Shown: positions 26,924 through 46,692 of the stretch, in pieces
Layout of the letters: each line of letters opens with the position of its first letter
Position numbering within the stretch: the first letter of the stretch is position 1
From: an uncultured bacterium
GTDB lineage: Bacteria; Bacillota; Clostridia; Lachnospirales; Lachnospiraceae
Reading direction: 5' to 3'
Assembly (NCBI GenBank): GCA_947177425.1
Contig: CAMWUN010000021.1
Coordinates: forward strand, 1-55,228
DNA length: 55,228 nucleotides
The notes under the pieces: generated by a model
Told to the model about the DNA's origin: nothing
Database searches by the model: none
Seen by the model: only the letters and a program-made list of their open reading frames with translations
Translations under genes and position numbers: made by a program

Positions 26924-27451
26924 CTACTGAAAAACCTGCACAATATCTTTCCAGACTGCCGAAACCCCATCTATCACCGTAGAAGCCTTTTCAATCCAGC
27001 CTAAAAACAAATCAAGTCCCTGCACGCAGAAATCCGTCAGACCGGAAACCGCTTCAAATCCACTGTTATAAGACGCCATGCTGCGGAACTGTCTAAGTCC
27101 GGCTTCCGCTTCAATTACCTTTACCTGTATTTCACCGTATCCACACTTGCTGGCGGCCTCTTCCATTATCTCCTCCGCCATCTCCGGCTCATCCATGGCG
27201 GTGTAAACCTCAGCAAGTCCAAGGTAAGCCTCGTAATTTTTATCATCGATACTTATGATATGTTCAAAAGTTACTTCGGCCTGCTCATAATCCATCTCCG
27301 AAAGGTATTTATATCCCAAATCCAACTGTTCGGAATGTGTATCCCCGGACACTTTACCGTACGCATACATATTAACAAATCCGAAAACAATAAGCAGTAT
27401 GATTCCGCCTATCATAAATCTTTTAACTTTTCTATTCATCCCCTGCGCCAT
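26924..27451 (-). CDS. Membrane-anchored TPR protein, end of the Tad/kinase operon
   Basis: The 175-residue protein has an N-terminal membrane anchor (about 12-30) and two TPR repeats (about 40-105). The block QLDLGYKYLSEMDYEQAEVT and AYLGLAEVYTAMDEPEMAEEIME closely resembles the TPR block of the 845-residue protein at 32291, so the two share an ancestor module. The C-terminal 60 residues are not recognised. It starts nine bases after the phosphatase gene and is last before the terminator. A scaffolding role on the membrane is plausible. Confidence 0.8.
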   Translation of the reverse strand: MAQGMNRKVKRFMIGGIILLIVFGFVNMYAYGKVSGDTHSEQLDLGYKYLSEMDYEQAEVTFEHIISIDDKNYEAYLGLAEVYTAMDEPEMAEEIMEEAASKCGYGEIQVKVIEAEAGLRQFRSMASYNSGFEAVSGLTDFCVQGLDLFLGWIEKASTVIDGVSAVWKDIVQVFQ

Positions 27452-27460
27452 CCTATTTGC

Positions 27461-28309
27461 TTAAAGACCCGATGCTTTAACAAGAACAACTGTTATGTTA
27501 TCCCGCTCCCCCCGTTCCTTCACTAATGAAACGGCATCTGCAATACATTTTTTTATAGATGAACGGTTCACTAACAACGCCGGGCTTAAAATCTTTTTTA
27601 TTTCATTATCTTCCAGTTCATGGACGAAACCGTCCGAGCAGAGCATGAATACATCTTCCCTGCCGACATTTCCGCTTCCAAACGCAATCTGCAGATTTTC
27701 TGACGCGCCCACGCACTGCAGAATTATATTACGTCGCTTATCATACTTTGCCTCTCTGGGCGAAAGCCGTCCCGCCCTGATTTCCCTTGCCACCACACTC
27801 TGGTCTTCTGTCAACTGCTGCAATTCATGATTTATACGGTAAGCCCTGCTGTCGCCAATCTGCGCCGTAATATAACTCTCATTGATGATGACCAACAATG
27901 TCAGTGTAGTGCCTGTCCTGATTCCTTTGTCCTGTGCATATTCATAAAGCAGGCGGTTCTGTTTTTGAATACACTGCTCTATTTCATCATGTAAATACTT
28001 CATAAGCTGTTCCTGGTTTTTCCCACGGATATTTTTGCTTACCGTATAGTCAAACCAGTTATTTAAAAACTGAATTGTGCTTTTGCTTGCGTAACCGCCT
28101 TCCTGCATACCGCCCACACCGTCACATACGGCTGCCAGAACCAGTGAGTATCCGTCTATTTTCATCATCCTTACACAGCACGCGTCCTGATTGACCAGAC
28201 GGCAGGTGCCTATATCTGAATTCATATCTGAAATAAACTGTAAGCCGGAAGCAGGCGCAGAATGCCGGGGAGCGCTTCCGTCCTTAATCTGTATTGTTTT
28301 CTCTTTCAT
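27461..28309 (-). CDS. PP2C-family Ser/Thr protein phosphatase
   Basis: The 282-residue protein has the PP2C metal and catalytic motifs in order: NQDACCV, AAVCDGVGGMQEGG, GTTLTLLV, IGDSRAYR, LCSDGFVHEL and RDNITVVLV. It probably reverses the action of the kinase encoded three genes upstream. It has no membrane segment. It sits between the vWA-FHA gene (18 bases) and the small TPR gene. The pairing with kinase and FHA proteins is as in other bacterial phospho-threonine modules. Confidence 0.94.
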   Translation of the reverse strand: MKEKTIQIKDGSAPRHSAPASGLQFISDMNSDIGTCRLVNQDACCVRMMKIDGYSLVLAAVCDGVGGMQEGGYASKSTIQFLNNWFDYTVSKNIRGKNQEQLMKYLHDEIEQCIQKQNRLLYEYAQDKGIRTGTTLTLLVIINESYITAQIGDSRAYRINHELQQLTEDQSVVAREIRAGRLSPREAKYDKRRNIILQCVGASENLQIAFGSGNVGREDVFMLCSDGFVHELEDNEIKKILSPALLVNRSSIKKCIADAVSLVKERGERDNITVVLVKASGL

Positions 28310-28327
28310 ATTCCGCTCCAGTCCAGA

Positions 28328-29836
28328 TTATATAGGCATAAACTCTACGCTAAACTCTACCTCGCCAAGTCTGACGATGCTTCCTGATATGATTTCCCTT
28401 TCGCCGTTTACCACTCCGCCTTCTAAATAGGTATGGTTGGCAGAATTCATATCCCGGATAAAAAACCGGTTATTCTTTATATAAAATTCACAATGCTGGC
28501 CGGAAACCGTCAGATTATAATCTACCGGAATCTGAACCATGTCAATATTTCTTCCGACGATCACATGGCCATCCATCGGATATCTGAAGATTCTATCGGG
28601 ATTTGACCTGTCCCGTAAGACCAGAAGATATCTTCCTCCCAGAATTGTTGTCACATCTTCCTCCGGTCTGTCCTGTGGGCCGATTTCCTGCACCTCAGGC
28701 CTCGCTGGTACCGGAGCCTTTGCTTTCCGGGCTTTCTTATCGCTTTTACCTTTATTCTTTTTCTGGTAAAAAACCAGAAAACCTGCTGCGATAATTAATA
28801 CAATTATCCCTGCTGTTTTTTCAACCCCAATGTTCTTATTTGAAGGCTCCGGCACAGATACGGGCTCCTGCGTGGGTGATGCTGTCGGCGCCAGTGTCGG
28901 CCCGGGCGTCGGCTCCGGTGTCGGTTCAGGCTCCGGCTCCTCCTGGGCCAGTGTGAAAGGCATGGAAACCTCTCCTGTCACTTCCATATCCCCGTCATCC
29001 GTATGAAGATTCATCAGAATATGCCTGCTGCCGCCATCCATGACATTTTCAGGCACATCCATTCTGACAGAATATATGTGGGAAAAATCATGGATTTCAT
29101 TTACAATCATGCTGGTATCTTCATAATCTTCTATGAGAAGTTCCTTACCGCCTGTTGCACGGGATAAGGCAAACATATTTTTTAATTCATCGGAATTATC
29201 CTTATACACATGTCCAATGGTATAAACAGGTCTTGGCGTCTCCTTCAGTTTTGAAACCAGTTCCTCCTTTGTAATACCGATTGCCTTATTATCAACGCCG
29301 TCAGAAATTACAATAAACCTGGTATACGCCGGGTCGTTTTCAATTTTTTCCACTGCTTCAAACAAATAATCGGTCAAATAAGTATCCTGGTTCTGAAACC
29401 CGATTTCATCTATCATCCTTACCATTTCTTCTTTATCCTGTGACTTTTCCGCCAAAAACTGAATGTCCTCGCCAAACACGGCAAGGCTGACCGTTTCATT
29501 TTCCGGAAGTTCCTGCACATACTGCCTCAAAATATTTTTTATATTTTCCCTGTTGCTTTCAGATATGGACAAAGAGTTATCCATTAGGATAACCGTATGG
29601 ACTGTAATATCCCCAGGCTGGATTATCTCCACATTTTCGCAGGGATATTGGGAAACCTGGGCATCAGCAGAATTTACAGTGCTTCCGCACTTTATGTATG
29701 AAACAATCTGTTTTTCATCTACTAATATCTGCAAAAGAGAACATTCCTGTACAGCCCACACCTTCCCCGGACTTCCCAGAGTTAATAATATAATAAATAG
29801 CCCTGCCAATTTTCTCCAAACCTCTGCTTTTTTCAC
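28328..29836 (-). CDS. Secreted/membrane vWA domain protein with cytoplasmic FHA domain
   Basis: The 502-residue protein has a signal peptide (ending near KVWA), a von Willebrand A domain outside (MIDAS motif DNSLS at about 86-90, VISDGVDNKA), a Pro/Glu-rich stalk with PEPTP repeats, a membrane segment (GIIVLIIAAGFLVFY, about 345-360) and a C-terminal FHA domain inside (HVIVGRNIDM, SGQHCEFYI, MNSANHTYLEGG). The stretch EEDVTTILGG just before the FHA could be a phospho-threonine site. It could connect surface adhesion to the internal kinase. The start is GTG, three bases after the small membrane protein gene. Confidence 0.92.
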   Translation of the reverse strand: MKKAEVWRKLAGLFIILLTLGSPGKVWAVQECSLLQILVDEKQIVSYIKCGSTVNSADAQVSQYPCENVEIIQPGDITVHTVILMDNSLSISESNRENIKNILRQYVQELPENETVSLAVFGEDIQFLAEKSQDKEEMVRMIDEIGFQNQDTYLTDYLFEAVEKIENDPAYTRFIVISDGVDNKAIGITKEELVSKLKETPRPVYTIGHVYKDNSDELKNMFALSRATGGKELLIEDYEDTSMIVNEIHDFSHIYSVRMDVPENVMDGGSRHILMNLHTDDGDMEVTGEVSMPFTLAQEEPEPEPTPEPTPGPTLAPTASPTQEPVSVPEPSNKNIGVEKTAGIIVLIIAAGFLVFYQKKNKGKSDKKARKAKAPVPARPEVQEIGPQDRPEEDVTTILGGRYLLVLRDRSNPDRIFRYPMDGHVIVGRNIDMVQIPVDYNLTVSGQHCEFYIKNNRFFIRDMNSANHTYLEGGVVNGEREIISGSIVRLGEVEFSVEFMPI

Positions 29837-29839
29837 CTT

Positions 29840-30010: not shown

Positions 30011-32269
30011 TTACAGCCATCCGGCCTGTACCAGTTCTGTATAAACCTTTTCCAAAAGGGGCATTTCCGGGTCGTCCGTCTCCACTTCCCGGAACAGCTC
30101 CACTGCCATCCGGTAATTCTCTCCAAATCCATGATAATCTCTCTGTGAAACATCTTTATTTGCCTGTTCATCCGCTTCCAGAAAAGCCTTACGCTTATAA
30201 GAAATATAATTGTTCCCATATAAATCGATTGCTTTATCTATAATCCCGTGCGCCTGTTCAAAGTCCCCTGTCTGCTCGTACAAAATTGTAAGGTTGATAT
30301 ACGTCTGATAGGAGGCCAGTCCGTTACTGATAATATCGTTAAATACCTGTATCGCTTTTCTGCTGTACTGCAAATCTCCTGTATTTGCCTGGAGATTGAT
30401 GTACATCTGGGCAAGTCTTTCATATAAAATCCCTTTGCTTCCAAGAGGCAGTTCACGAATTCCCTTTTCCAGCATCCGGGCACTGTCCAGCAGCCCCTCC
30501 GTACTGTTCTTATCCAAATCGCTGTAAAAAACATAAGCTCTTGTGCGTATCGTGTCATCCACTGTAACATCAAGACATTCTTTTAATTTTTCCTTTGCCG
30601 TTCCTATGTCTTTCTGACTTCCCGCTATCTCCCCCTGTACAAGGTAAATCTGATCTTCTTCCAGTCCCCTTTCAATGGCTTTATTCAGAATATCCTGCGC
30701 GTCGCCGCTTCTCTCCATTCCCGCATATACAATCGCAAGATCCCGGTAGATGGCTTTATTCTGCCCGTCCAGTTCCAGCGCCGTCTCCAGCACCTTTGCC
30801 GCGTCCTGATAAGCGCCCTGTTCATAATAACAGTTTCCAAGCAGCAGATACAAATTTGCCGCCGCCACCTGGTCTTCAAACTGATATTCTGCGGTCATTT
30901 CCTGTATATACCCTGCACATCCTTCGTAATCCCTGTTTTTATACATCCACAGAGCCCTTTCATAATAAGCCCTTGGGTCATATTTGTTTAGCGCCAGACA
31001 CGCTTCATAATTCTCTTCAAAAGTATTCTGGTCCCGCTGTGCAATGGCCTCTTCCATTCTGGAAATATATGTTCCATACAAATTTTCCTGTTCTTCATGT
31101 CCTGTCCTTAAACCTGCAAAAACAAGCACGATTCCCAAAAGAACCGCTGTAAACGAAACCAGCAGTTCCACTCTCTGCTTAAACAACAGCTTCTTGTACC
31201 GTTTGTCAAGTTTTGCAATCTGGTTAAGCGCCTCCAGCATCTTCCCGGCAGACTGAAAACGGTCTTCCTTCCTGTATGCCATGGCTGTGGTAAGAATATA
31301 GGCAAAGGCATCGGAAGACAGTGCGCTTAACTGCTCATAAGTCAAATCGGGCTGCCCGTCATCAGGTCTTCTTCCCGACAGTAAATGATATAAAGTTGCT
31401 CCCAGACTGTAGATATCCGAACGGACGTCAATCTGCTGCTGCGGGTTGTCCACAAAAATACTGTCCATTGTGGTTTCTAAAAAAGCCGTCTCCTTTTCAT
31501 CCCTCTGGTTTTCCTGCAAATATAAGGTTTCTGTGTCATTCTCTGTATTTAAAAACAGTGTTTCGTTCTCTGCACTATCTTCCAGAAGCACTGTTGTATT
31601 TTCTAATCCAATGGTTTTTGTCTCACGGGGCGTCGCCTGAATGCTGCTTTCGTCCCGTAGTTCTGGTCTTTCATTGTTTACTGTATACTGCTGTATTCTA
31701 TTCTGGATTTCCAGCACCAGAGCTTTCTGCTCCGGCGCCGCATATCCCTTGCTGTATCCTACAGCCATAATTTCATTCTGTTCAAAAAAGCCTGAAATGT
31801 TAAAGTCAATCAGGCATACATTGTCTGACGGGGTCAGCATAATATTTGCAGGCTTAATATCCCCGTGCAGGACCGGTATCTCCCGACTGTGGAGATAAAT
31901 CAGCGCTTCACACAACTGCCTTGCATATTTGATAATCTTTTCCATTGGGAACCTGACCCCCTTATCCAGCAGTTGCTGGAAGGATTCTCCCGGAATAAAG
32001 TCTATGACTGTATAAACAGCTTCTCCTGCTTCAATAAAATCCAATACCTGAGGTAAATAAGAATGGCGGAGATTTTTCAGTATATCCGCCTCCTGACGGT
32101 TTTTCAGTTGGTTTCCTGATTTCATATGCATTTTTTTGATTACCACTTCCTTTTGGAGACGCTTGTGATAAGCCTTGTAAACAGAGCCTCCCCCGCCTTC
32201 TCCAATCTGCCCGGTAACATCATATGTATCTTTTAACTGCGCCTGAATATTTGCTGTAAAATCTCCCAT
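30011..32269 (-). CDS. Membrane Ser/Thr protein kinase with Thr-rich insert and TPR tail
   Basis: The roughly 750-residue protein starts with a Hanks-type kinase domain: glycine loop GEGGGGSVYKA, lysine in VVIKKMH, catalytic loop HGDIKPANIM (HGD in place of HRD), metal site DFN in place of DFG, and AAPEQ. About 95 residues rich in Thr and acidic residues (NTTVLLED, NDTETLYL, KETAFLETT) are inserted between AAPEQ and DVRSDIYSLG. One membrane segment (about 371-390) and a TPR domain of about 350 residues follow. PASTA repeats are absent. A TTG nine bases earlier is an alternative start. It probably phosphorylates the FHA partners in the same operon. Confidence 0.93.
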   Translation of the reverse strand: MGDFTANIQAQLKDTYDVTGQIGEGGGGSVYKAYHKRLQKEVVIKKMHMKSGNQLKNRQEADILKNLRHSYLPQVLDFIEAGEAVYTVIDFIPGESFQQLLDKGVRFPMEKIIKYARQLCEALIYLHSREIPVLHGDIKPANIMLTPSDNVCLIDFNISGFFEQNEIMAVGYSKGYAAPEQKALVLEIQNRIQQYTVNNERPELRDESSIQATPRETKTIGLENTTVLLEDSAENETLFLNTENDTETLYLQENQRDEKETAFLETTMDSIFVDNPQQQIDVRSDIYSLGATLYHLLSGRRPDDGQPDLTYEQLSALSSDAFAYILTTAMAYRKEDRFQSAGKMLEALNQIAKLDKRYKKLLFKQRVELLVSFTAVLLGIVLVFAGLRTGHEEQENLYGTYISRMEEAIAQRDQNTFEENYEACLALNKYDPRAYYERALWMYKNRDYEGCAGYIQEMTAEYQFEDQVAAANLYLLLGNCYYEQGAYQDAAKVLETALELDGQNKAIYRDLAIVYAGMERSGDAQDILNKAIERGLEEDQIYLVQGEIAGSQKDIGTAKEKLKECLDVTVDDTIRTRAYVFYSDLDKNSTEGLLDSARMLEKGIRELPLGSKGILYERLAQMYINLQANTGDLQYSRKAIQVFNDIISNGLASYQTYINLTILYEQTGDFEQAHGIIDKAIDLYGNNYISYKRKAFLEADEQANKDVSQRDYHGFGENYRMAVELFREVETDDPEMPLLEKVYTELVQAGWL

Positions 32270-32290
32270 GCCATTCAACTCATCTTTCTG

Positions 32291-34828
32291 TTACTCAATT
32301 ACTCCTTGGGCAGAACCGCCCACATTCCTGTTCTCTTCTTCCAGCCCTTCATTTTCGGAACTTTCAGCATTTTCCTCAGATTCCACCATTTCTGTCTCAT
32401 CTAAAGGGGTACTGCTCTCTTCGGGCATTAAGCACTCTTCCGGTGCTGCTGTTTCCTGTTGCTCTGTGGTTTCTTCTGTTTCCGCCTCTCCCGGCTCCTG
32501 ATTATCTGCCGTTTCGGCTTCACCCGGCTCCTCTGCTTCCGCTTCCTCCGGCTCTGACGATTCTTCTGTCTCCGTTTCGCCCGGTTCTTCTGCTTCCGTT
32601 TCATCAGCCCCAAGGTTCTCTTCTGCCCCGGCTTCTTCTGATTTTTCCGGTTCCTCTGATACATTTTCCTCCGGTTCCACTGTCTCTTCTATTTCAGCTT
32701 CTTCCGGCTCTGACACTTCTTCTGCTTCCTCCGGTTCCAAAGTTTCTTCCGCTTCAGCCTCTTCCGGCTCTACAGTTTCTTCCGCTTCCGGCTCTACAGC
32801 TTCCCCTGCTTCAATTTCTTCTGGTACAGATTCTTCAGTTACGTTTTCTTTTGCGGCTGAAATTCCCTCTGTTACAGACTCTTCTGCTTCTGTTTCTATC
32901 AATTCTACCGCTTTTCCATCATCCGCTAATGCCAGCGCTGCCGGTTCCCCGGCGCCATCAGCCTCTGCCGTCATCAGTGAATAATTGCCAGTCAAATCGC
33001 CTGGATGCGTAAAACTTACACTATTTTTTACCACCAGCCGGCCATTTTCAATCCGGAATACTTCCCATGTGGTTCCCTCTTTGTTCACTGGTACATTGCC
33101 GTCAAAAATAATTCCGTCATCCCCATAGACTACAACTCTGGCCCCTGAATTCGCCAGATTCCATGACCCGCTTTGTCCCGGCCCTGTCCAGCCGTTTGTA
33201 AAGTTGTGGACTGCGTAGATATAAGAATTGCCATCCCCAATCTTTACCGTAGTTGTCTCAGGCCCGTAAGAAGACGTATCATCCCAATCCAGCGATGCAT
33301 TTCCGTCGCTTGAATTTTTGTTGCCAAAATAAACATGATAATTGTCGTTTCCGGTACAGATCAAATGGGAATCCAGATCTCTGGGCTCTTCCCCCCAGGT
33401 AAGTACAATGCGGTATTCTCCCTGTGTCTGTATGACAGGAGACATATTAATTGTGAGGTCATTTTCTCCCGGTTTAATTGTTTCGTTATGAATGTACGTG
33501 GAATAACCGTCTTTGGACGCTTCTACCGTATAATATCCGGCTGTCACATCATCATCAATCGAAAACCTTCCGTCGCTTCCTGTGGTTGTATGCTTATTGC
33601 TTTCAATAATGCTCTGATTGCCGTTTGACCCATTGTCAAAACCGTTGATAAGCACTATGGTAGCCCCTTCCACTCCCTGGGAATCTGTTGCATTAATTGC
33701 AACGCCCTTTAAGGATGCTGACTGTCTGCTCTCTTCCTCTGTCAGCATAACGAAGCTACTGCTTGTTAAAGCCTCATTTACAACTGAAACCACTGTACTT
33801 AAATCGGCATATCCCTCTTTTGAAAGAACGATTCTGTAACTGCCTGCCATTAATTCCTGTAAATATTTTCCTATGTTATCCGTATTTACTAAAACAGGAT
33901 TCTCACTATTGCCAGAATATACGCTTATGGTAACGCCTTCAATTCCCTGTCCGTCAATACCGTATATATTTCCGGTAATTCCTGTTGTGGGCAGAACAGG
34001 TTCAACAACAGTACCTGAGTTGTCATCAGAACCGCCCTCCTGACTTCCACCGCTGCTATCAGAACCGCCCTCTTGACTTTCTCCTCCGCCCGATGAACTG
34101 CCGCCGGAATTTTCATTGCTGTCTGTCCCATTATCTTCGCTTTCGCTGACCGCGGGCGCTGGCTGGGATACTGGAGCAGTCAGAGGAATCCTTGCCGGTT
34201 CCTCATCATTCCGTGTAATAACCAGCACAGGCGCCTGGTTCTGGTTCCTGTTATCTTGTTCCAGTCCGATTACAAGAGATGGGACTTCCTCTTCATCTTC
34301 CTGTGTCTGGGAAGGCTGTTCCTCTTCTGCATCCCCGTCTTCCTGACTGCTTTCTGCTACCTGCACAGGCGCCTCTTCTCCGGGCTGGTATTCCCGCAGC
34401 ATTTCCCTTAAGCGGTCTGAATTGGTAGCCAGAATTCCCGCTTCCAGAGTTGACACTACCAGGTCAATTTGTTCCCGGGATGCATACAACTGTGCCAGAC
34501 TTATGTATACCTCAACGCTGTCCGGCAACATGGCTTTCGCCTGTTCCATAATCTCTATTGCCTTATCCTGCTGGCCCAGCGCCATATAAGCGTCTGACAG
34601 CCCTAGGTATGCATCCAGACAATAGGGATCAATTTCCAGAGCCTGCTCATATGCAATTACTGCATTTTCGTAGTCCAGCTCTGAAATATACTTTTCTCCT
34701 AAATCCAATTGTGCCTGTAAGTCACTGCCGGAATGACTCACACTTACTGCAATCACTGCCGCCGCTGCTACTGCCGCTACTGCCAGTACCGCACTTATGA
34801 ATATTTTAGATTTAAGTATATTCTGCAT
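32291..34828 (-). CDS. Large surface protein: TPR, two CarboxypepD-like domains, DUF2135-like domain, acidic tail
   Basis: The 845-residue protein has an N-terminal membrane anchor (about 10-28), a TPR block (about 37-115), a Ser/Gly/Glu-rich linker, two carboxypeptidase-regulatory-like beta domains (about 280-365 and 375-470, with GQGIEGVTISVY and SQGVEGATIVLI), and a domain like DUF2135/YfaP (YRIVLTWGEEPRDLDSHLI, about 475-620). The tail of about 200 residues is almost only Glu, Ala, Pro and Thr in EEPEEAE-type repeats. AAGGAGG precedes the ATG. Its place between the FHA and kinase genes suggests a structural or calcium-binding partner; the function is unknown. Confidence 0.85.
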   Translation of the reverse strand: MQNILKSKIFISAVLAVAAVAAAAVIAVSVSHSGSDLQAQLDLGEKYISELDYENAVIAYEQALEIDPYCLDAYLGLSDAYMALGQQDKAIEIMEQAKAMLPDSVEVYISLAQLYASREQIDLVVSTLEAGILATNSDRLREMLREYQPGEEAPVQVAESSQEDGDAEEEQPSQTQEDEEEVPSLVIGLEQDNRNQNQAPVLVITRNDEEPARIPLTAPVSQPAPAVSESEDNGTDSNENSGGSSSGGGESQEGGSDSSGGSQEGGSDDNSGTVVEPVLPTTGITGNIYGIDGQGIEGVTISVYSGNSENPVLVNTDNIGKYLQELMAGSYRIVLSKEGYADLSTVVSVVNEALTSSSFVMLTEEESRQSASLKGVAINATDSQGVEGATIVLINGFDNGSNGNQSIIESNKHTTTGSDGRFSIDDDVTAGYYTVEASKDGYSTYIHNETIKPGENDLTINMSPVIQTQGEYRIVLTWGEEPRDLDSHLICTGNDNYHVYFGNKNSSDGNASLDWDDTSSYGPETTTVKIGDGNSYIYAVHNFTNGWTGPGQSGSWNLANSGARVVVYGDDGIIFDGNVPVNKEGTTWEVFRIENGRLVVKNSVSFTHPGDLTGNYSLMTAEADGAGEPAALALADDGKAVELIETEAEESVTEGISAAKENVTEESVPEEIEAGEAVEPEAEETVEPEEAEAEETLEPEEAEEVSEPEEAEIEETVEPEENVSEEPEKSEEAGAEENLGADETEAEEPGETETEESSEPEEAEAEEPGEAETADNQEPGEAETEETTEQQETAAPEECLMPEESSTPLDETEMVESEENAESSENEGLEEENRNVGGSAQGVIE

Positions 34829-36273: not shown

Positions 36274-36312
36274 CTGTCCGCCTATACCTTTCCATACAGT
36301 TCCCCTATACAC

Positions 36313-38272: not shown

Positions 38273-38276
38273 AAAT

Positions 38277-38987
38277 TCACCATAGTGCGGTCTTCGCACA
38301 TACCTTAAACGTTCTCGGTTCCAGTTCAATGATGCCTAAGTGGAAATCAATTGTATACACAATACAGACCTCCAGCTCCGGCATACCGCCGCTGGATGCA
38401 TTTGCCCAGTGGCTGCTGCCAAAATCCAGACCTGCCATCCCGCCGTCAATTCCCAAATCCTTTAAATATTCATCTGCCCCTTTGGCCGACATATTTTCTA
38501 TCTGCGCTTCCACAATCCCTTCCACAATAGCTTCAATAACCATACTGCTTAGCATATCCGCCCCCTGGGTTTTGATCAGGCTGAAAATATTGTTCATAAG
38601 GGCATTCGGATCGCTGAAAAAATCGTACACATGCTGTCCGGCCTGCTGCGCCGCCCCTGCTGCGCCTGTGCCTGTGGATATGGCGTTTCCCACTTCCTCT
38701 ATATCATCCAGAAGGCTGGCGGCATCCGCCGTAAAAGCCGCCGCCTGTGAGGAAGTGGAGACCCGCTTGTCCACAATACCTGTTTTCGTAAGCACATAAC
38801 TGTACTGGGAAATCTCTCTTGCCGCCTCATTGGCGGCATACTGCAGAACGACCTGCGCCCTGGCAATCTGGATGAAGTCCATCATGATAAGATAAAATAC
38901 AATGAATATCACCAGGAAAATGGACGCTTCCAGCGTAATGCTTCCATTTTCAGTTTTTTCCCTGCCTTTAATAACCCTGAATTCCAT
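38277..38987 (-). CDS. TadE-like pseudopilin
   Basis: The 236-residue protein starts with a short basic leader followed by a pilin-type segment NGSITLEASIFLVIFIVFYL, where E19 corresponds to the conserved glutamate after the prepilin cleavage site. A mostly helical, Ala-rich outside domain follows. TadE-like proteins are minor pilin subunits. Its start overlaps the end of the large TadG-like gene by 20 bases, which suggests coupling. Confidence 0.87.
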   Translation of the reverse strand: MEFRVIKGREKTENGSITLEASIFLVIFIVFYLIMMDFIQIARAQVVLQYAANEAAREISQYSYVLTKTGIVDKRVSTSSQAAAFTADAASLLDDIEEVGNAISTGTGAAGAAQQAGQHVYDFFSDPNALMNNIFSLIKTQGADMLSSMVIEAIVEGIVEAQIENMSAKGADEYLKDLGIDGGMAGLDFGSSHWANASSGGMPELEVCIVYTIDFHLGIIELEPRTFKVCAKTALW

Positions 38988-41610
38988 GATACTTCACCTT
39001 AAATGCATCCTCACTATAGCTGACATCGTACCCCTCTCCGCCCAGCTTCTGCAAAAAGAATGTGTCAATAGATACAACAGCGTCAACAGATACCATCGTG
39101 TACATATTTTTTAATGTGTTTGAATTATTGGTCTTTTTTTCTGTCAGATTCAGTTCAATACAGTCCGCGGTCCTTCCCAGCAGTTTGGTCTGCTGTGACG
39201 GGATATACATGTTGACACAGACCAGAATCCAGAGATAATCCTCATAGGTAAAACCTGAACCGTCATTGTTGTAAGGCGTTGGTGCCCCGAGCCATGTTCT
39301 CCACTTGTCCGGCTTCTTAATAAGCGGCACCGCCTTACCGTTCATCAAATCAACCATGTTGTCAACTGTCTCAATCGTAGCCGCAATTGTCAGAAGTGCG
39401 CATTTAATGGCTATCCTCCCCATCATTCCCACCGGGAAAAATGCGGCAATGGTTCTTGCCTGATTATTTAATTTGCTATTGGTAAATGCAAAGCACATAT
39501 TAAAAACAAAGTTTGCCGCAAAAATGATTGCCTTGGTTTTGTTTATATTGCTTCTCACATTGGGACTGCCCCACAATATGTATTCTACCTCTGCCCGGTA
39601 AATGGCATTGCTGTCCAATGAAGCCCTGCTCAGGGACTTGGGACTGGCTATTTCGCTCCCGTCCCTGTTCCGGTTTACCGTATAATAGGAAAACATGTCC
39701 ATTACATATTCCGTAAAATACAGCGGCTCTATTACGGCTTCGCCTATCCCCGCCATTTTGGAGCTTAAGGAAGACATCTGGGTCAGTGTGGCATTATCCT
39801 CATTCAGATTGTCACTACCGCTTTCAGCCGCTTTCTTTCTCGTGTCCTTGTCGTCCAGACTTCCTTCGGCTTTGATGGAATCTCCCCCATAGTCCCCTTC
39901 CGGCGCAATTCCAAGCCACACGGAAGGGAGTTCATTTCCCGCAATGTTTCTCACATTATCATCCGGAATATCCTGGGTCGTGAGCAAATTCACTAATTCA
40001 TTCTTTTTCTCGTTTAATGCATTTTTCCATGTTGTTGTTGCTTCATCGGCTTTTGCTTTATCCGAACTGTCTGTATTGCAATATTCCTCTTTCAGCTTCT
40101 TCACGAAAGCATCCTGTTCATCCACGGTTTTATCAATTACTACAGACAGCGCCATCCTGTCCGGCGTATGGTAACGCACCATGAAATCACTGGCTGCACG
40201 GCTTACCTCACTGCTTTCAATTATTTGTCCATAATCAGCCTCCCCCATGAAGACAGATTTGGAGGAAACATCATAATCAATACGGTACCCCGTAAATGTC
40301 ACCTGGTCTAAAGAAGCTGTCACCTCATCAAAGTAAACTTTATTGTTATTGATTTTCTGCTCAAATGCATCAATAATTCCCCCGTTTTCAAACAGACCGC
40401 TTACCTCGTCGATGCTTTCCTGATAAGCTGCCCTGGATTCTCCGTTAGACAGATTATCTACCGCATTTTTCCAATTTTCATATTTCCCTTCGCAGTCCGA
40501 AAGCTTTTCCCTGATTTCATCCAGCTTATCCACTATATCCGTACAGTTTTCACTGCCGCCTTTGGCGCATTCCCACTGTGCATGCATCTTTGTATAGGAT
40601 GTCTGCACAAGTTCGTCCAGCCTGCGCTCCACTCTTTCCGTGCCGTCCGCCAGTATGGATTTGGCGTTGTCATATTCTGAAATAATTCTCTGTATTTCGT
40701 CATATTCATCGCTGTCCCTGTCCACCCCTTCCAGCAAATCGGAAGGATTCTGTCCCCGCATGGCATTTTCAATCCTTTTCATTTTAATCAGATTGGAGGC
40801 CGTTTCCGCTGTAATACTGCTTATGTCACAGGCCAGATCCGCCATCCGCTCCATTAAGTCTTTCATATCACCAAAGTCACTGTCACTACAGTGCGTCAGA
40901 CGATAATGTGTTACCGCCAGCAGCGTAATTTCCTCATAATTATTTTTCGTTTCAGACAATAACTGGTTCAGTGACTGTTCAGTGCCTATACTGTTTACAT
41001 ATTGTATCTGTCCCTTCTGACTGCCCTTTCCATAAATTAAATCCTTCAAATCATCCAGCAGTTTCTGGACATCATTTAACTCTTTTTCAAATTTGAGCTC
41101 CGCGTCCGCCGCGGCCCTCTCCTCCGCTATGGTTTCCAGACTGCTTACCCTGTCTTCCATAGCACGGTCAAGCAGCATGACCGGCCCGCGGTATTTCATG
41201 TATTCCAATACTTCCTGCTTAAAAACTTCTGTCTGGTAAATTTCCGTATCAACAAGGTCGGAAGCAGTAAAACCGCCTTCCGTCAGTTCCAGATACACCA
41301 GCGCCTTGGCAAAATCTTCTCCTGATACCCCGCTGGCATTTAAGGACATCTCAAAGCATTCCTGCATAATGCTTTCTATCTCTTCCGCGGTATCGGCCAT
41401 TGCCAGCAGCCCATATACTTCATTTAACTGCTCATGGTAATTGGACAGGGCGGCGTTCATTGCCAGATCCCCTGCCCCCGAGACAAGATTTTTGCTTGCC
41501 AGAATCCTGCTTCCATCAATTATGACGCCGCTGAATATAAAAGTTGGAATCAGAATCAATGTCAGAAAGACCGCAATTGTCCCCTCGTGTTTTCTACAGA
41601 AATTTACCAT
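38968..41610 (-). CDS. Large TadG-like pilus assembly protein (DUF5702 type)
   Basis: The roughly 880-residue protein begins with a TadG-like N-terminal segment, FCRKHEGTIAVFLTLILIPTFIFSGVIIDGSR, followed by a very long, mostly helical outside region (about 60-560, many coiled stretches) and a C-terminal part with two hydrophobic segments (TKAIIFAANFVFNMCFAF and MMGRIAIKCALLTIAA). Most TadG proteins lack the coiled insertion, so this one is unusually long. AGGTGG lies five bases before the ATG at 41610. It would act as a minor pilin or tip/anchor protein. Confidence 0.82.
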   Translation of the reverse strand: MVNFCRKHEGTIAVFLTLILIPTFIFSGVIIDGSRILASKNLVSGAGDLAMNAALSNYHEQLNEVYGLLAMADTAEEIESIMQECFEMSLNASGVSGEDFAKALVYLELTEGGFTASDLVDTEIYQTEVFKQEVLEYMKYRGPVMLLDRAMEDRVSSLETIAEERAAADAELKFEKELNDVQKLLDDLKDLIYGKGSQKGQIQYVNSIGTEQSLNQLLSETKNNYEEITLLAVTHYRLTHCSDSDFGDMKDLMERMADLACDISSITAETASNLIKMKRIENAMRGQNPSDLLEGVDRDSDEYDEIQRIISEYDNAKSILADGTERVERRLDELVQTSYTKMHAQWECAKGGSENCTDIVDKLDEIREKLSDCEGKYENWKNAVDNLSNGESRAAYQESIDEVSGLFENGGIIDAFEQKINNNKVYFDEVTASLDQVTFTGYRIDYDVSSKSVFMGEADYGQIIESSEVSRAASDFMVRYHTPDRMALSVVIDKTVDEQDAFVKKLKEEYCNTDSSDKAKADEATTTWKNALNEKKNELVNLLTTQDIPDDNVRNIAGNELPSVWLGIAPEGDYGGDSIKAEGSLDDKDTRKKAAESGSDNLNEDNATLTQMSSLSSKMAGIGEAVIEPLYFTEYVMDMFSYYTVNRNRDGSEIASPKSLSRASLDSNAIYRAEVEYILWGSPNVRSNINKTKAIIFAANFVFNMCFAFTNSKLNNQARTIAAFFPVGMMGRIAIKCALLTIAATIETVDNMVDLMNGKAVPLIKKPDKWRTWLGAPTPYNNDGSGFTYEDYLWILVCVNMYIPSQQTKLLGRTADCIELNLTEKKTNNSNTLKNMYTMVSVDAVVSIDTFFLQKLGGEGYDVSYSEDAFKVKYHGIQGY

Positions 41611-41619
41611 TTTCACCAC

Positions 41620-42279
41620 CTAAAATACGTACTTCCTTATACCATCCATAATTTTTCCGATATCATCTGCAATGCCAAGCTTTTCGCTTGCTACCGTAAG
41701 GGCATCTCCAGCCAGATCCACCATCCGCACAAAATTTGCAGGATCCATAGCCACAGCTATTGCCGACTGTTTAAAGGCCAGGGAATCGGGATAACCAAAA
41801 TACTGCATGACCCCCGGCGTTGGAAAGCTGAAAGTCACTTCCGCCATAATCTGGGTGGCAAACAATCCCCGGTCAATGGTCACGGTGTTATCCGCATAGG
41901 CTCCCCCGGCCAGTATCAGTGTGCTTTCCGCTACCTTGTCCATAAACCGCTGTAACTCTCCCTGACTTGTCCATGCCCCATATCCGGCAATCTCCCGATA
42001 GAGCACAAGCAGATTGTCGTGGGCCGCCTTGTAGTAGGCATTGACATCCGCAGGGTCTGACGAAAAATCAATGGCCTTCTGTGTATAATCCCCCAGCTCC
42101 CGGTAGCCGGGATTGGCCAGCACATGGGCGCCCTGGTGGGCCACCCGCTGTACCTGATAAAGCATTGCCATTTCCTGCAGCTTAAATAGTCCTAAATAAA
42201 TAAGGGCAAAAACAGTCAGCAACACAATAGGAAAAACAATGACCGCTTCCACCATGACTGCGCCTTTTTCTTTCTTCAT
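41620..42279 (-). CDS. TadE/TadF-like pseudopilin
   Basis: The 219-residue protein starts with KKEKGAVMVEAVIVFPIVLL, a pilin-type leader with the conserved glutamate after the cleavage site, and has an outside domain of about 180 residues. It lies nine bases after the Flp pilin gene and nine bases before the TadG-like gene. A TTG six bases earlier is an alternative start. A role as minor pilin is inferred from the family. Confidence 0.87.
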   Translation of the reverse strand: MKKEKGAVMVEAVIVFPIVLLTVFALIYLGLFKLQEMAMLYQVQRVAHQGAHVLANPGYRELGDYTQKAIDFSSDPADVNAYYKAAHDNLLVLYREIAGYGAWTSQGELQRFMDKVAESTLILAGGAYADNTVTIDRGLFATQIMAEVTFSFPTPGVMQYFGYPDSLAFKQSAIAVAMDPANFVRMVDLAGDALTVASEKLGIADDIGKIMDGIRKYVF

Positions 42280-42288
42280 AATCAAAAA

Positions 42289-42501
42289 TCAGCCGCCAAT
42301 AAACTCTGTCAACTGCCCAAATACATTTTGTACTGCTGCTGTTAGCTGATCTTTGAAAATAACCGCAATGGCGATCACAATTACCATAATCAGAATAATA
42401 GACACAAAGTTAGTATCCCCATCCTCTTTTAGCAATTCTTCCAGCTTTTCATTCAAAATCTGTTTTAAATGTAATTTTTTGATTTGTAAAAATGTTTTCA
42501 T
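42289..42501 (-). CDS. Flp-type pilin (major subunit)
   Basis: The 70-residue protein has a charged leader (KTFLQIKKLHLKQILNEKLEELLKEDGD), one long hydrophobic segment (about 31-48, TNFVSIILIMVIVIAIAVIF) and a short tail (QNVFGQLTEFIGG). This fits Flp1-like pilins of clostridia, with cleavage likely near the DGD. AGAGGAATC precedes the ATG at 42501. An inverted repeat (AAGCAT/ATGCTT) lies upstream at about 42556-42571. It lies between tadC and the TadE/TadF-like gene. Confidence 0.85.
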   Translation of the reverse strand: MKTFLQIKKLHLKQILNEKLEELLKEDGDTNFVSIILIMVIVIAIAVIFKDQLTAAVQNVFGQLTEFIGG

Positions 42502-42593
42502 GCCCGATTCCTCTTTTCTTTCTTTTTCTGTTTTTTGTGCAACCTTTATCTCAAAGCATATGAATGCTTCGGAAACTATGTAACGCCAGTTTC

Positions 42594-43460
42594 CTATAAC
42601 CCCGAAATAATCGGAGCCATAATCATAAATAATATACCGATGAAAATAATCACCGTGGGCATCAGCAGTTTTGCATTTGCCTTTTCCCCTTTCTGTTTCA
42701 CCAGATTTCTCTTTTCCAGCCACAGTTCATCTGCCATATCTTTTAAAAACATGGTCAGTTCCGCCGCACCCTTTTCCAGTCCCTGAATTACCATGGAGGA
42801 AAACTTCCGCACTTCCTTAATGCCGCACCGCTCTGCAAATTCCCGGTATGCCGCCGCTTCCTGCACACCATTTTCAAGTTGTGCCGCGGTCAGACGCATT
42901 TCCTGGAACAAAACCGTATCGGACTGCTGGGCAATCAGATTCCAGGCGTCCCTAAGCAGCATCCCCGAATTCACAAGCAGAGTCATCTTGGACAACACCT
43001 GTGGGAATTCCGCCAGAATTTCTTCCCTTCTGGCTGTAAGCTTGTCCTTGAAACTTTCATTCATGTACCATACAAAAATCGCCGCAAGGACCGCCCCGAA
43101 AAGCAGGGCAATGGGATTGTTGGCTAAAAGGGCCAGCAGGAAAATAATGGGAAGTACCGTAATCACATAGGTAATCTTCCCTCCCACAGACACATAGTAA
43201 TAGTACTCTGCATACTTCTTTCCATACACTTCCGACATCAGCTTAATCTTCTTTCTGGATGAATCGGATTTTATGTTAAAATGAATAATTTCCATAATTT
43301 GAAACCCGATATAAAACAGTTCGCTTAAATAATAATCATCAGGATTGATGGAGGAAGTCATTTCCCTGAACTTTTCCTCATATTTTGCCGCCAGTATCAC
43401 CCAGAACAGGACAACCACTGTTGTAGGCACCAGCATTGCAAGCTGAAATGTACTCTGCAT
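42594..43460 (-). CDS. tadC: TadC-type inner-membrane platform protein
   Basis: The 288-residue protein belongs to the type II secretion system F family. It has an N-terminal membrane segment (STFQLAMLVPTTVVVLFWVIL), central segments, the T2SSF helical domain (EEILAEFPQVLSKMTLLVNSGM, LENGVQEAAAYREFAERCG) and a C-terminal membrane segment. It forms the platform for pilus assembly together with TadB, the next upstream gene, separated by 92 bases that contain a strong hairpin. Confidence 0.92.
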   Translation of the reverse strand: MQSTFQLAMLVPTTVVVLFWVILAAKYEEKFREMTSSINPDDYYLSELFYIGFQIMEIIHFNIKSDSSRKKIKLMSEVYGKKYAEYYYYVSVGGKITYVITVLPIIFLLALLANNPIALLFGAVLAAIFVWYMNESFKDKLTARREEILAEFPQVLSKMTLLVNSGMLLRDAWNLIAQQSDTVLFQEMRLTAAQLENGVQEAAAYREFAERCGIKEVRKFSSMVIQGLEKGAAELTMFLKDMADELWLEKRNLVKQKGEKANAKLLMPTVIIFIGILFMIMAPIISGL

Positions 43461-43552: not shown

Positions 43553-44353
43553 TCAGACTTTGATATCTGTAAATTTCCGTCCCAGGTGATAAGCCAGATA
43601 AAACATCCCCAAAGCTATCAGTTTAATCACCACATTTATAACTGTATTGGAAGCCGCCGTCATGTCGCTGCCCATTCCGCCCAGACTTACCAGTATGATC
43701 AAAGGCATAATCATCATGATATTGAGTTCGTTTTTGTTACCTGCAATGATTGTCTGGATTTCCATTTCTATTTCGATTTTGTCATTAATCACATCCCGGG
43801 TGGATGCAATAATATTCTGGATATTGGCCCCCTGCCTTAAGGAAACCCGGAACACGTCCGCAAAGCTTGCCACATCCTCCAGGCCGCTGCGCTGGGCAAA
43901 ATTAGTCAGCAGGTCTTCTATATTAATATTGTTTTCCATCCCCGTCACAATGATTGCCAGTTCTGTGGTTATGTCCGCCTGATCCCCATAAATCTGTTCT
44001 AAATCGTTCCAAGCATCTTTGAAAGAATCCAGCGTATTTTTGCCTGTGGCATAAGATGAGGTAAGGGATTCCAGTAAATCCTTAAACTGTAAGAGCAGCT
44101 CCTTTGATCTTTTCTTCTGCCTGCTTTCCCGGTAAATTCCCTGTGCCAGAATTGCAACAGCGATGGATGCAGCAATCGTCACTGCCACGTTTTTAAAAAA
44201 CAGATAAGATACCAGCGCTCCTATCCCTGCGCCCATCAGACCTGCTACAATTCTATCCTGGGGGGACATATGATACACATGATAGTCGTCACCGCCGCCT
44301 ATCAACGATTCTACCGGTTCGTATTTTTCTTCCTTTTTGTGAAAAAAAGCCAT
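43553..44353 (-). CDS. tadB: TadB-type inner-membrane platform protein
   Basis: The 266-residue protein is a second type II secretion F-family protein, with two N-terminal membrane segments (about 32-70), the helical T2SSF domain (FKDLLESLTSSYATGKNTLD and FAQRSGLEDVASFADVFRVS) and C-terminal segments (LNIMMIMPLIILVSLGGMG). It starts nine bases after the CpaF gene. It is paired with TadC, as in all Tad systems. Confidence 0.92.
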   Translation of the reverse strand: MAFFHKKEEKYEPVESLIGGGDDYHVYHMSPQDRIVAGLMGAGIGALVSYLFFKNVAVTIAASIAVAILAQGIYRESRQKKRSKELLLQFKDLLESLTSSYATGKNTLDSFKDAWNDLEQIYGDQADITTELAIIVTGMENNINIEDLLTNFAQRSGLEDVASFADVFRVSLRQGANIQNIIASTRDVINDKIEIEMEIQTIIAGNKNELNIMMIMPLIILVSLGGMGSDMTAASNTVINVVIKLIALGMFYLAYHLGRKFTDIKV

Positions 44354-44362
44354 ATCACACCT

Positions 44363-45601
44363 CTATATTTTTCCTCTGTAACCCATCAGCTTTAACTTAA
44401 AATCATTGATAAGCGGATTTTCTGTCCTTTTCAGCGTCCCAATCACCTTATCGATTGTGGAAGTTTCATCCTCCTCAAACATATAAAGGGGATTCAGTTT
44501 TATTTCCCCGCTTTCATATTTCACTACTTCTGTAATCTCCATGGTTTTTCTGGAACGGTCACGGAGCCTGGACAAATGGACGATAATATCCACCGCCGAC
44601 GCTATCTGCTGTCGCACCGCATCTAAGGGAAGTCCCTCCGCCCCTGTCAAAACCATAGTTTCCAGACGGCTTAACATATCTCTTGTGGAATTGGCATGGC
44701 CTGTTGACAGGGAACCGTCATGGCCTGTATTCATGGCCTGCAGCATGTCCAGCGCTTCCGCTCCCCTGACTTCCCCTACAACAATACGGTCGGGCCGCAT
44801 ACGGAGCGCCGATTTTATCAGATCCCGGATAGTAACTGCTCCCACCCCTGCGGTATTGGCGTTTCTGGTTTCCAGACTGACCAGATTATCCACACTGGCT
44901 ATCTGCAGTTCAGCCGAATCCTCAATGGTAATTACCCGTTCATCGCAGGGAATAAAGTTGGAAATTGCGTTCAGAAAAGTGGTCTTGCCGGAACCTGTTC
45001 CCCCGCAGATAAAAATATTGTACTTTGCCCTTACCAGCAGCCGGAGTACATCCGCAATCTGCGGTGTAATGGAACCATACTGAATCAGCTTTTCCACTGT
45101 CATGGGTTCTTTGGAAAATTTTCGTATTGTGACAATAGGGCCTTTCAGCGATATGGGAGGCAGTACCACATTCACACGGGAGCCGTCTGGCAGTCTGGTA
45201 TCCACAATGGGATTTGCCTGATTGACTTCCCTGCCTGCCAGCGCTACAATTCTCTGTATAATATCCTGCAGCTTTTCCTCACTTTCGAATTCTTCTTCCA
45301 GTTTCATCAGCTTCCCGGATTTTTCTATAAAAATATCTGCCGGCCCGTTAATCATCACTTCCGTAACCGTATCATCATTTATGATCGTGTCTAAAAGGCC
45401 AAATCCTCTGATAGCGCTGATTATCTGGTCAATCAGAAATGCCTTGTCCCCTATGGACACATACTTTCCATCAAAATATAAATCCACTTCCTCCCTGACC
45501 TGTTTCTCCAACATCTCATCCGTTGTTTTAGTCAGGTTAATGCTTTCCAGAATTTTTCTGCGGATATCCTCCTGGGCCTTTCCCATTATTTCCTGAGCCA
45601 T
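44363..45601 (-). CDS. cpaF: CpaF/TadA-type secretion ATPase
   Basis: The 412-residue protein is the hexameric ATPase that drives Flp pilus assembly. It has the N-terminal helical region, Walker A GGTGSGKTT (about 200-208), the acidic box ITIEDSAELQ, and the Walker B region VVGEVRGAEALDMLQAM with the histidine box TGHDGSLSTGHAN. It lies 20 bases after the TadZ-like gene. The protein is complete and normal in length. Confidence 0.96.
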   Translation of the reverse strand: MAQEIMGKAQEDIRRKILESINLTKTTDEMLEKQVREEVDLYFDGKYVSIGDKAFLIDQIISAIRGFGLLDTIINDDTVTEVMINGPADIFIEKSGKLMKLEEEFESEEKLQDIIQRIVALAGREVNQANPIVDTRLPDGSRVNVVLPPISLKGPIVTIRKFSKEPMTVEKLIQYGSITPQIADVLRLLVRAKYNIFICGGTGSGKTTFLNAISNFIPCDERVITIEDSAELQIASVDNLVSLETRNANTAGVGAVTIRDLIKSALRMRPDRIVVGEVRGAEALDMLQAMNTGHDGSLSTGHANSTRDMLSRLETMVLTGAEGLPLDAVRQQIASAVDIIVHLSRLRDRSRKTMEITEVVKYESGEIKLNPLYMFEEDETSTIDKVIGTLKRTENPLINDFKLKLMGYRGKI

Positions 45602-45621
45602 GTTACATCTCTCCTTCGCAA

Positions 45622-46692
45622 TTATTTTATACCCTGCAGCAGTTCCATTTTGGCTATTTTATCAATAATGCCTGTGAAATTGCCGTTTTCAATCATTGGG
45701 AAAGCACCGCCCACACGAATCTGTGAAATCTGGTCCGGTATCTGTGCATTTTTTAGGATTTTGTTAAAGTAAATTTGTATTTTGGAAATAATATCAACTT
45801 TCTTTACTTCTTCCACAGTCTGGACAAATTCCAGATAGCGTCCCAGTTTCAGCAATGCAATCTCACTGTTATCTGTCACCATCACCACACGGTTTGCCAT
45901 GGACATTACCGCAATTTCCTTATCCTGCAAGCCGTTTCCCAGGTCAATGATAACCTTGTCATAAACTTTCGCTGTCTCAATTGCTTTCAGCAATTCTTTT
46001 ATTTCTTCCGGAAGCAGACTTTGCAAATCCATGGGATTGGAACATTCCTTAAAATAATATGTCCCTGTTTCATCCCGCGAGACAGAACTTTCAATTTTCA
46101 GTCCCAGGGTATTACGCCTGCTCTTTACTGCATAAACCAGTTCATCAAGCCCCGGTTTTTCTTCTCCCCTAAATGACATCTTACAGGAGCCGGTATTTTC
46201 CAAATTTAAGTACAGGGTTTTTTCCATTTGGGAAAATGATTTTGCAGCTGCGCAGGCAATCGTTGACGCGCCAAGCCCTCCTGCCGCCGATATAAAGGCA
46301 ATAAAAGTCGTTTTTCCGCTGACAATGGATGTATTTTCATACCGGGCGTGTTCTTTTCTGGCATATAAATCCAATAAATCTTTATAAATCTGGTCAGCGC
46401 GCCGGTATTTTGCAAGATACCATATACCCTCTTCCTGTCCGTCGTCCTCATCCACAAGATATGCCCACAGACGGCCGTCCCTTAATTTTTCATCCAGACT
46501 TTGCAGTCCGGATTCCATTTCCCCACCCACTAATATGAGGTCTGCCGTATCAGATTCAAATATATGCTGTAAATATTCAGATTGTGTATAGACATTCCAT
46601 TGAAATTTGTCATAGTAGTGTGAATTAAAATAATTTACCAGTCTTTCACAATACAATGCATCATCAGAACAGACAGATACTTTGATTTTCAT
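45622..46692 (-). CDS. TadZ/CpaE-like ParA-type ATPase
   Basis: The 356-residue protein has an atypical receiver-like N-terminal domain (about 1-110) and a ParA/MinD-like domain (about 125-350). The Walker A is GGLGAST (about 138-144), in which the lysines of ParA are replaced, as in many TadZ proteins; the downstream motif KVIIDLGNGLQDKE fits Walker B. TadZ places the Tad machine in the cell. It is the first gene of the long operon, about 60 bases downstream of the candidate invertible segment. Confidence 0.88.
   Translation of the reverse strand: MKIKVSVCSDDALYCERLVNYFNSHYYDKFQWNVYTQSEYLQHIFESDTADLILVGGEMESGLQSLDEKLRDGRLWAYLVDEDDGQEEGIWYLAKYRRADQIYKDLLDLYARKEHARYENTSIVSGKTTFIAFISAAGGLGASTIACAAAKSFSQMEKTLYLNLENTGSCKMSFRGEEKPGLDELVYAVKSRRNTLGLKIESSVSRDETGTYYFKECSNPMDLQSLLPEEIKELLKAIETAKVYDKVIIDLGNGLQDKEIAVMSMANRVVMVTDNSEIALLKLGRYLEFVQTVEEVKKVDIISKIQIYFNKILKNAQIPDQISQIRVGGAFPMIENGNFTGIIDKIAKMELLQGIK

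Follow-up and report, generated by a model that had tools for sequence, protein, structure and literature searches.

A DUF6382-FHA protein inherited with a Tad pilus subtype of Lachnospiraceae, and a possible phosphothreonine control of the pilus

Does a Tad pilus operon carry its own phosphothreonine signalling genes, or do the two merely lie side by side? The question is raised by a 55,228-nucleotide stretch of DNA from an uncultured Lachnospiraceae bacterium (contig CAMWUN010000021.1 of assembly GCA_947177425.1, our C21 within a 4.19 Mb draft genome), called the window below. Open reading frames (ORFs) and Pfam searches revealed 17 tightly packed minus-strand genes running from 46692 to 26924, a count made up of sixteen ORFs and one further ORF of 45 residues. 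In order of transcription the first nine encode TadZ, CpaF, TadB, TadC, Flp, a TadE-like protein, a TadG-like protein with DUF5702, TadE and TadV. The following eight encode a WG-repeat protein, a DUF6382-FHA protein, a TPR/carboxypeptidase-regulatory protein, a kinase-TPR protein, the 45-residue product, a vWA-FHA protein, a PP2C phosphatase and a small TPR protein. A first-pass annotation had described this same one-strand run, from a Tad set into FHA, kinase, vWA-FHA, PP2C, TPR and WG proteins; the ORFs and Pfam assignments bear it out, and its coordinates and gene names were correct. In the threonine phosphorylation pathway of the type VI secretion system, PpkA/PppA/Fha, a kinase, a phosphatase and an FHA protein are encoded with the machine. 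Control of type VI systems is touched on in PMC11217815. That machine is a different one, and the likeness of the window to it is seen in gene content. Our analysis showed that the Tad pilus genes and the phosphothreonine genes are truly joined; the pilus is probably controlled by phosphorylation.

The machine itself was identified from a CpaF-type ATPase and two T2SSF platform proteins (TadB scoring below the Pfam cut-off), found in a single gene run with TadZ, a Flp pilin, the TadV peptidase and TadE/TadG pseudopilins. By this gene content the locus is a Tad (type IVc) pilus operon, predicted to make a filament. That the signalling set instead governs a Tad-derived export device, not a pilus, seems to us very improbable. 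The large DUF5702 TadG-like protein and the Ig-like repeat proteins near some relatives would suit such a device, as would the Tad-like Kil system, which is needed for prey killing (PMC8460266; this and the other papers cited are represented by the portion of their text that was available), but the window has genes for a Flp-type pilin, for a prepilin peptidase and for pseudopilin-like proteins.

Among 118 genomes of the same class, DUF6382 matches were found in 38 and the window CpaF in 57 at E 1e-20. When CpaF was restricted to a strong set (49 matches of at least 41% identity, in 43 genomes), both proteins were present in 35 genomes, CpaF alone in 8, DUF6382 alone in 3 and neither in 72 (Fisher 8e-19). 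Twenty-nine of the 42 DUF6382 places lay no more than 12 kb from a strong cpaF, 28 of them downstream on the same strand. Eight of the other 13 were on contigs with adjoining tad-labelled genes, one adjoined flp, two had a kinase and PP2C next to them and cpaF 21-23 kb away, one was truly apart (L068) and the last was a weak, broken match. Conversely, 20 of the 49 strong cpaF places had no DUF6382 within 12 kb, several of them on cut contigs; L077-L081 had a different Tad gene order and lacked DUF6382, and at L084 a profile built from our own set found a DUF6382 gene not listed by the Pfam search. None of 37 weaker CpaF-like matches had DUF6382 within 12 kb. Co-conservation of the neighbourhood with cpaF, the check proposed by the first-pass annotation, is strong for the DUF6382-FHA gene, and the two halves do not occur apart as often as together.

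Three arrangements seen in this survey are recorded here in their own right. The DUF6382-FHA gene of L068 (L068:8904-10580) has no clear Tad neighbour, and a GGDEF/STAND-TPR protein and an HSP90 gene are nearby. About 21 kb from cpaF, L088 (G087:C3:46000-63699) holds two DUF6382-FHA genes, PP2C and a kinase beside a 1703-residue Ig-like repeat protein. In two genomes (L063, L064) very small Tad clusters consist of CpaF, one T2SSF-type ORF of about 550 residues, Flp and DUF6382-FHA.

The association extended to wider samples. In 200 genomes of the family, CpaF was found in 193 (E 1e-70) and DUF6382 in 192. Among the best 80 of 588 loci from named records, DUF6382 was found in 37, in 29 of them with FHA in one ORF; many of the loci without it were cut short or belonged to other Tad types. 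Within the same best 80, DUF6382 follows the Tad genes in all ten Paenibacillus/Cohnella (Paenibacillaceae) loci, and it was found in none of four Bacillaceae and none of eight Chloroflexi loci, a few sets that include short loci. On a CpaF tree of 166 rows (100 with DUF6382, 35 without, 31 unknown; built by FastTree, which gave a long-branch warning), the presence label changed 9 times against 31.3 in shuffles, with none of 500 shuffles as low, and the tree divided into one side of 99 with and 8 without DUF6382 and another of 1 with and 27 without. DUF6382 is, on these counts, a near-constant companion of this Tad subtype, and the DUF6382-FHA protein accompanies such machines in many Gram-positive bacteria. 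A chance neighbourhood was rejected on the co-occurrence and linkage, on the CpaF tree and on the kinase and PP2C counts given below. One record outside the phylum of the other cases, titled uncultured Cellulomonadaceae, has a DUF6382-FHA gene (L145:137-2053, minus strand) on the strand opposite to cpaF.

The kinase, PP2C and vWA-FHA genes showed a different distribution. We compared 24 window-type loci (the window, the 21 next-best CpaF matches of the family and two of lower rank, L116 and L117, chosen by eye) with 18 sister-type loci (17 picked from the family matches, and a second Tad locus of the window's own genome on contig C14). A kinase was present in 15 of the 24 window-type loci and PP2C in 16; neither was found in any of the 18 sister-type loci. 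Cultured commensals with a window-type locus include Blautia sp. An81 and Catenibacillus scindens. In named records a kinase or PP2C was located upstream of the Tad genes at L136, L139, L140, L147, L150, L165, L166 and L171, L140 also having a vWA-FHA gene upstream, and at L156 the kinase was on the other strand. Since these genes stand upstream of Tad in some loci, their presence is not merely frozen gene order. Of the annotated loci other than the window, only L140, a Butyrivibrio bin, matched the window's vWA profile. A scan of the genes that follow the kinase in some relatives (10 + 9 proteins) gave Ig-like repeats, YkuD, FtsX, mannosyltransferase-like and housekeeping families, and no shared extra component was seen among them. 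The signalling set reported earlier as joined to Tad therefore survives in part: its FHA half is near-constant, and kinase and PP2C belong to a sub-lineage, but it is not one block, the kinase, PP2C and vWA-FHA genes being optional and lying upstream or downstream of Tad. As judged from gene content, the kept joint is the DUF6382 protein, usually with FHA, and the kinase, PP2C and vWA-FHA form an added layer in one sub-lineage.

Might the kinase set belong to a type VII secretion system (T7SS) or to a general envelope-stress module that merely shares the pilus transcript? DUF6382 has been described as part of T7SSe, T7SSf and T7SSj, where a DUF6382 + FHA protein occurs with a PPM phosphatase, as here; in T7SSe and T7SSj a kinase is added, predicted in T7SSj with TPR as in the window, and regulation has been proposed for these two sets (PMC11217815). 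The position of the kinase also varies between loci, as such sharing would allow. However, those sets sit with a T7SS ATPase and WXG100 proteins, and the window set sits with Tad genes and no T7SS; Tad genes do adjoin T7SSg and T7SSh, and the J component is not among the core parts listed for these in the available text (PMC11217815). The DUF6382-FHA protein has the architecture of the T7SS J component (TseJ/TsfJ/TsjJ), with DUF6382 at the N-terminus and FHA at the C-terminus, but it is not encoded with an EssC-type ATPase. In the window's own genome both DUF6382 matches lie beside Tad genes, that on C14 being a DUF6382-FHA gene with no adjacent kinase or PP2C. All three FHA domains detected at Pfam sensitivity are in the two Tad loci (any FHA domains of EssC, undetected at this sensitivity, would add to the three), and one of three kinases and one of three PP2C genes are in this operon. 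The genome's EssC-type T7SS ATPase (G000:C73:13118-16549) is on a contig different from both. None of ten EssC places in the 118 genomes was within 12 kb of DUF6382, by a model made for T7SSb that a divergent T7SS could escape. Ownership of the set by a T7SS was rejected for this operon on this lack of linkage, and the wider explanation as a T7SS or stress module appears improbable.

What kind of protein is the constant partner? A fold search with the whole DUF6382-FHA model gave FHA matches only, so the DUF6382 domain was modelled alone. This model matched kinase folds in Foldseek, including YukC/EssB at rank 3. A search of the DUF6382 profile against PDB sequences gave nothing convincing (best E 0.12). 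In an alignment of 25 sequences Pro124 was the sole invariant residue, and no conserved Lys, catalytic Asp or DFG was seen in it. DUF6382 is modelled here as a probably degenerate, pseudokinase-like kinase fold.

Between DUF6382 and FHA lies a disordered linker, in which we searched the 80 residues immediately preceding FHA for the motif x-T-[T/V]-hydrophobic-hydrophobic, with expectations obtained by shuffling. It was found in 37 of 59 DUF6382-FHA proteins against 1.28 expected; in the rest of the linker of the same proteins it was found in 6 against 1.89. Its position was also restricted: 33 of 44 occurrences begin 26-35 residues before the FHA match and 9 begin 41-49 before. The motif was sharpened after inspection of the 59 sequences (the first pattern tried, TTx[hydrophobic], gave 20 of 59 against 7.8 expected), which makes a second set, 29 proteins taken from named records, the fairer test; there it occurred in 12 against 0.45 expected. 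The two sets overlap by at least one protein, L142 of the 29 (without the motif) being identical with L107 of the 59. The pattern is also enriched in CpaF (75 motifs against 13.6 expected), and it is therefore no evidence by itself outside FHA linkers. The window DUF6382-FHA protein has two copies, the motif lying in the disordered stretch before FHA; the window kinase carries the motif too, within a Thr-rich insert that follows its activation segment, and the window vWA-FHA protein has a similar stretch ahead of its FHA domain. Only some of the loci have long kinase inserts; the kinases of L109, L115 and L117 have Thr/Asp-rich inserts between the activation segment and the next helix.

This arrangement resembles that of GarA, in which a threonine motif in an unstructured extension N-terminal to FHA is phosphorylated (PMC5448819, PMC12321487). 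GarA/OdhI and the window protein share a threonine motif in a disordered stretch before FHA; GarA, however, regulates metabolic enzymes and its phosphorylation has been measured, whereas the motif is known here from sequence alone (PMC5448819, PMC12321487). Most DUF6382-FHA relatives conserve three positions of the FHA site (Arg/Lys, His and Asn), and the vWA-FHA protein of the window keeps the Arg, Ser, His and Asn of the phosphothreonine site. The kinase retains the beta3 Lys, Glu, catalytic Asp, Asn and metal-binding Asp, with DFN in place of DFG, and is catalytically complete by its residues; the same five were kept in all 20 kinases aligned. The active-site Asp residues of PP2C were kept in all 26 sequences with letters there, and the metal-binding residues of the window PP2C are present. 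The intact catalytic residues of kinase and PP2C count in favour of the first-pass reading, in which the pilus, or a secretion use of it, would be switched after translation by kinase-FHA binding.

Several observations weigh against phosphothreonine control. Nine of the 24 window-type loci show no kinase. Four of these (L095, L100, L112, L113) are cut by contig ends and one, the Catenibacillus locus L105, has a longer copy (L139) with an upstream kinase, leaving L098, L099, L108 and L116, for which neither a contig-end cut nor an upstream kinase was shown. The strict motif is absent from 22 of the 59 and 17 of the 29 proteins. A correspondence between the motifs of kinase insert and FHA linker within loci was striking by eye, but it was not significant (p 0.12 at n=4, then p 0.06 at n=22) and is not claimed. 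The residue after the conserved FHA glycine is Ser in the window DUF6382-FHA protein and Arg/Lys in 73 of 88 proteins, the window included (counted by regular expression, 3 of the 88 being unmatched). Because Ser replaces the usual phosphate-contacting residue, the window DUF6382-FHA protein may be unable to bind phosphothreonine. Five of the 18 sister-type loci (L123, L126, L127, L129, L133) have DUF6382 with no FHA detected, and among the DUF6382 family matches listed, 25 frames are shorter than 330 residues, probably too short for both domains; it may therefore be DUF6382 that is constant with Tad, the phospho-reader being an optional part. Superposed by Foldseek, DUF6382 and kinases fit loosely (TMq 0.39-0.63).

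These points bear on an explanation that we regard as unlikely though deserving attention, namely that DUF6382-FHA serves the Tad machine as a structural scaffold that works independently of phosphorylation, like the YukC/EssB pseudokinase and YukB/EssC FHA of T7SSb, with kinase and phosphatase acting on other targets. The match of the DUF6382 model to kinase folds including YukC/EssB, the Ser of the window protein and the lack of a local kinase in all 18 sister-type loci would agree with it, and the YukC-YukB FHA contact of T7SSb, judged to be phospho-independent, provides a precedent for it (PMC9600267). Three points speak against a scaffold. Most relatives differ from T7SSb FHA in having kept the FHA-site residues Arg/Lys, His and Asn; it is not obvious what a scaffold would use the positioned threonine motif for; and kinase with PP2C recurs in one Tad sub-lineage.

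On balance we lean towards a Tad subtype with its own phosphothreonine control, made up of DUF6382 docking, a GarA-type switch and a kinase/PP2C/vWA-FHA layer. What the analysis itself shows is the order of the genes, their co-inheritance, catalytic residues that are intact, a kinase-like fold in the DUF6382 model and a threonine motif at a set position; we infer the rest, namely that DUF6382 docks on the motor, that phosphorylation occurs, that there is an outside cue and that assembly is controlled. The constant piece would be a soluble protein with pseudokinase-like DUF6382, a disordered linker and usually FHA, and DUF6382 would dock on the inner-membrane Tad machine, at the motor CpaF or at TadZ. 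The FHA domain and the linker threonine motif would act as the GarA-type switch: a kinase, acting on the linker motif or on itself, would change the partner of FHA and through it pilus assembly. The sub-lineage would add a kinase that spans the membrane and exposes its TPR domain outside, together with a vWA-FHA receptor and PP2C as reset, through which an outside cue, e.g. contact, could set the state of the pilus. Hydropathy, the sole basis of our topology predictions, gave no membrane segment in DUF6382-FHA or PP2C, and the positions of the predicted segments in the other proteins suggest sensors outside the cell with the kinase, the phosphatase and both FHA domains inside.

A bolder version we hold only tentatively, and would put somewhat short of even. 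In it, the pseudokinase-FHA protein with its GarA-like threonine tail would be a core subunit of a Bacillota Tad clade (Lachnospiraceae, other Clostridia and Paenibacillaceae) and a phosphothreonine switch on its motor. Most species would rely on housekeeping kinases for it, and the sub-lineage on the operon-encoded kinase, phosphatase and vWA-FHA receptor. Unrelated envelope machines (Tad, T7SS and MviN) would then share the pseudokinase-FHA pairing as a general control joint.

Related pairings have been published for other machines. The Kil system of Myxococcus xanthus is likewise a Tad-like machine with several FHA proteins, for which the authors suggest a signalling cascade; it differs in that FHA is fused to the ATPase, and no mention of a kinase or of DUF6382 was found in the available text (PMC8460266). 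Class III CpaF also ties FHA to the Tad motor, but as an N-terminal FHA fused to CpaF, mostly in betaproteobacteria, whereas the window FHA belongs to a separate protein (PMC12019362). We observed FHA fused to CpaF at L211 (a Candidatus Auribacterota bin) and L214 (a Hydrogenophaga bin). YukC/EssB-YukB of T7SSb and MviN-FhaA, like the present protein, pair a pseudokinase with FHA in an envelope machine, in their case as two proteins and in the window as one fused protein (PMC9600267, PMC12599244). Neither FHA nor forkhead is mentioned in the available text of a published survey of type IV pili in Gram-positive bacteria (PMC3244431). Among the results listed, literature searches on Tad with FHA, kinase, phosphatase, pseudokinase or Lachnospiraceae gave no account of the association and none of how Tad pili are controlled in Lachnospiraceae, preprints and most subscription papers lying outside their coverage. 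The first-pass statement that no case had been described for a clostridial Tad pilus agrees with this, but it needs qualification, as FHA-Tad links have been published (PMC8460266, PMC12019362), and so have DUF6382-FHA, kinase and PPM sets for T7SS variants (PMC11217815). New here are the kinase-like fold predicted for DUF6382 and the threonine motif positioned before FHA as in GarA.

The genes of the operon (Table 1) are separated by little, the spacing ranging from overlaps to gaps of 92 bases. The spacing is 92 bases at TadB-TadC, 80 at TadC-Flp, 74 at FHA-TPR, 4 at tadV-WG and 0 at WG-FHA with the listed GTG start, or about 39 if a later ATG is used; the earlier description of gaps mostly under 75 bases holds as to tight packing, with the largest at 92 and 80. 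In consensus scans, terminator-like sites occurred at chance rate (18 against 16.9 expected), the six on the minus strand all being intragenic, and promoter-like sites numbered 52 against 36.4 expected in shuffles (sd 6.2). One weak promoter-like match (9/12) lies in the FHA-TPR gap at 34906-34877, where a second transcription start may exist. Rfam gave no match at gathering score in positions 24000-50000. The gene immediately upstream of tadZ, likewise on the minus strand, encodes a resolvase-type recombinase (PF00239; 46927-47568). The TPR/carboxypeptidase-regulatory protein has a long, Glu-rich, repetitive C-terminal tail.

Table 1. Genes of the Tad operon, in order of transcription, and the hairpin that follows them (window coordinates).
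Feature	Position	Strand	Basis
TadZ/CpaE-like, TadZ-type receiver domain	45622..46692	-	PF21194 E 2.3e-12
CpaF/TadA motor ATPase	44363..45601	-	PF00437 E 1.5e-62
TadB platform protein	43553..44353	-	T2SSF E 1.1e-4, below Pfam cut-off; position and membrane segments
TadC platform protein	42594..43460	-	PF00482 E 6.1e-10
Flp-type pilin	42289..42513	-	PF16982 E 1.8e-12; start at internal ATG (42513) of longer listed ORF
TadE-like pseudopilin	41620..42285	-	No Pfam match; own-set profile groups it with TadE; N-terminal membrane segment
TadG-like, DUF5702	38968..41619	-	PF18960 E 2.1e-29
TadE-like pseudopilin	38277..38987	-	PF07811 E 1.4e-5
TadV prepilin peptidase	37616..38329	-	PF01478 E 7.7e-13
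WG-repeat protein, single predicted N-terminal membrane segment	36313..37611	-	PF14903 E 1.7e-44; hydropathy
DUF6382 (predicted pseudokinase-like fold), disordered linker, FHA; no membrane segment predicted	34903..36312	-	PF19909 E 6.7e-22, PF00498 E 9.1e-14; models, fold searches
TPR and carboxypeptidase-regulatory-like protein, predicted membrane anchor (N-terminal segment), acidic repeats	32291..34828	-	Pfam, hydropathy
Ser/Thr kinase (predicted cytosolic), membrane segment 372-390, TPR	30011..32278	-	PF00069 E 5.9e-38; catalytic residues
45-residue ORF, one hydrophobic segment	29840..29977	-	Translation
vWA, membrane segment 338-356, FHA; receptor-like	28328..29836	-	PF00092 E 1.3e-9, PF00498 E 9.3e-12; hydropathy
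PP2C-type phosphatase	27461..28309	-	PF13672 E 3.3e-10; active-site Asp residues conserved
TPR protein, predicted membrane anchor (N-terminal segment)	26924..27451	-	PF14559 E 1.2e-7; hydropathy
Hairpin, probable terminator, after last gene	26850..26912	-	21 pairs, 3' arm ends UUUU, -27.8 kcal/mol, z -5.94

Tad-type cpaF is near-universal in this family (193 of 200 sampled genomes), and a pseudokinase-FHA subunit inherited with the machine offers a direct experimental handle on control of the pilus. If the proposed control is true, phosphothreonine control would be extended to a type IV pilus, and DUF6382 would gain a fold and a role.

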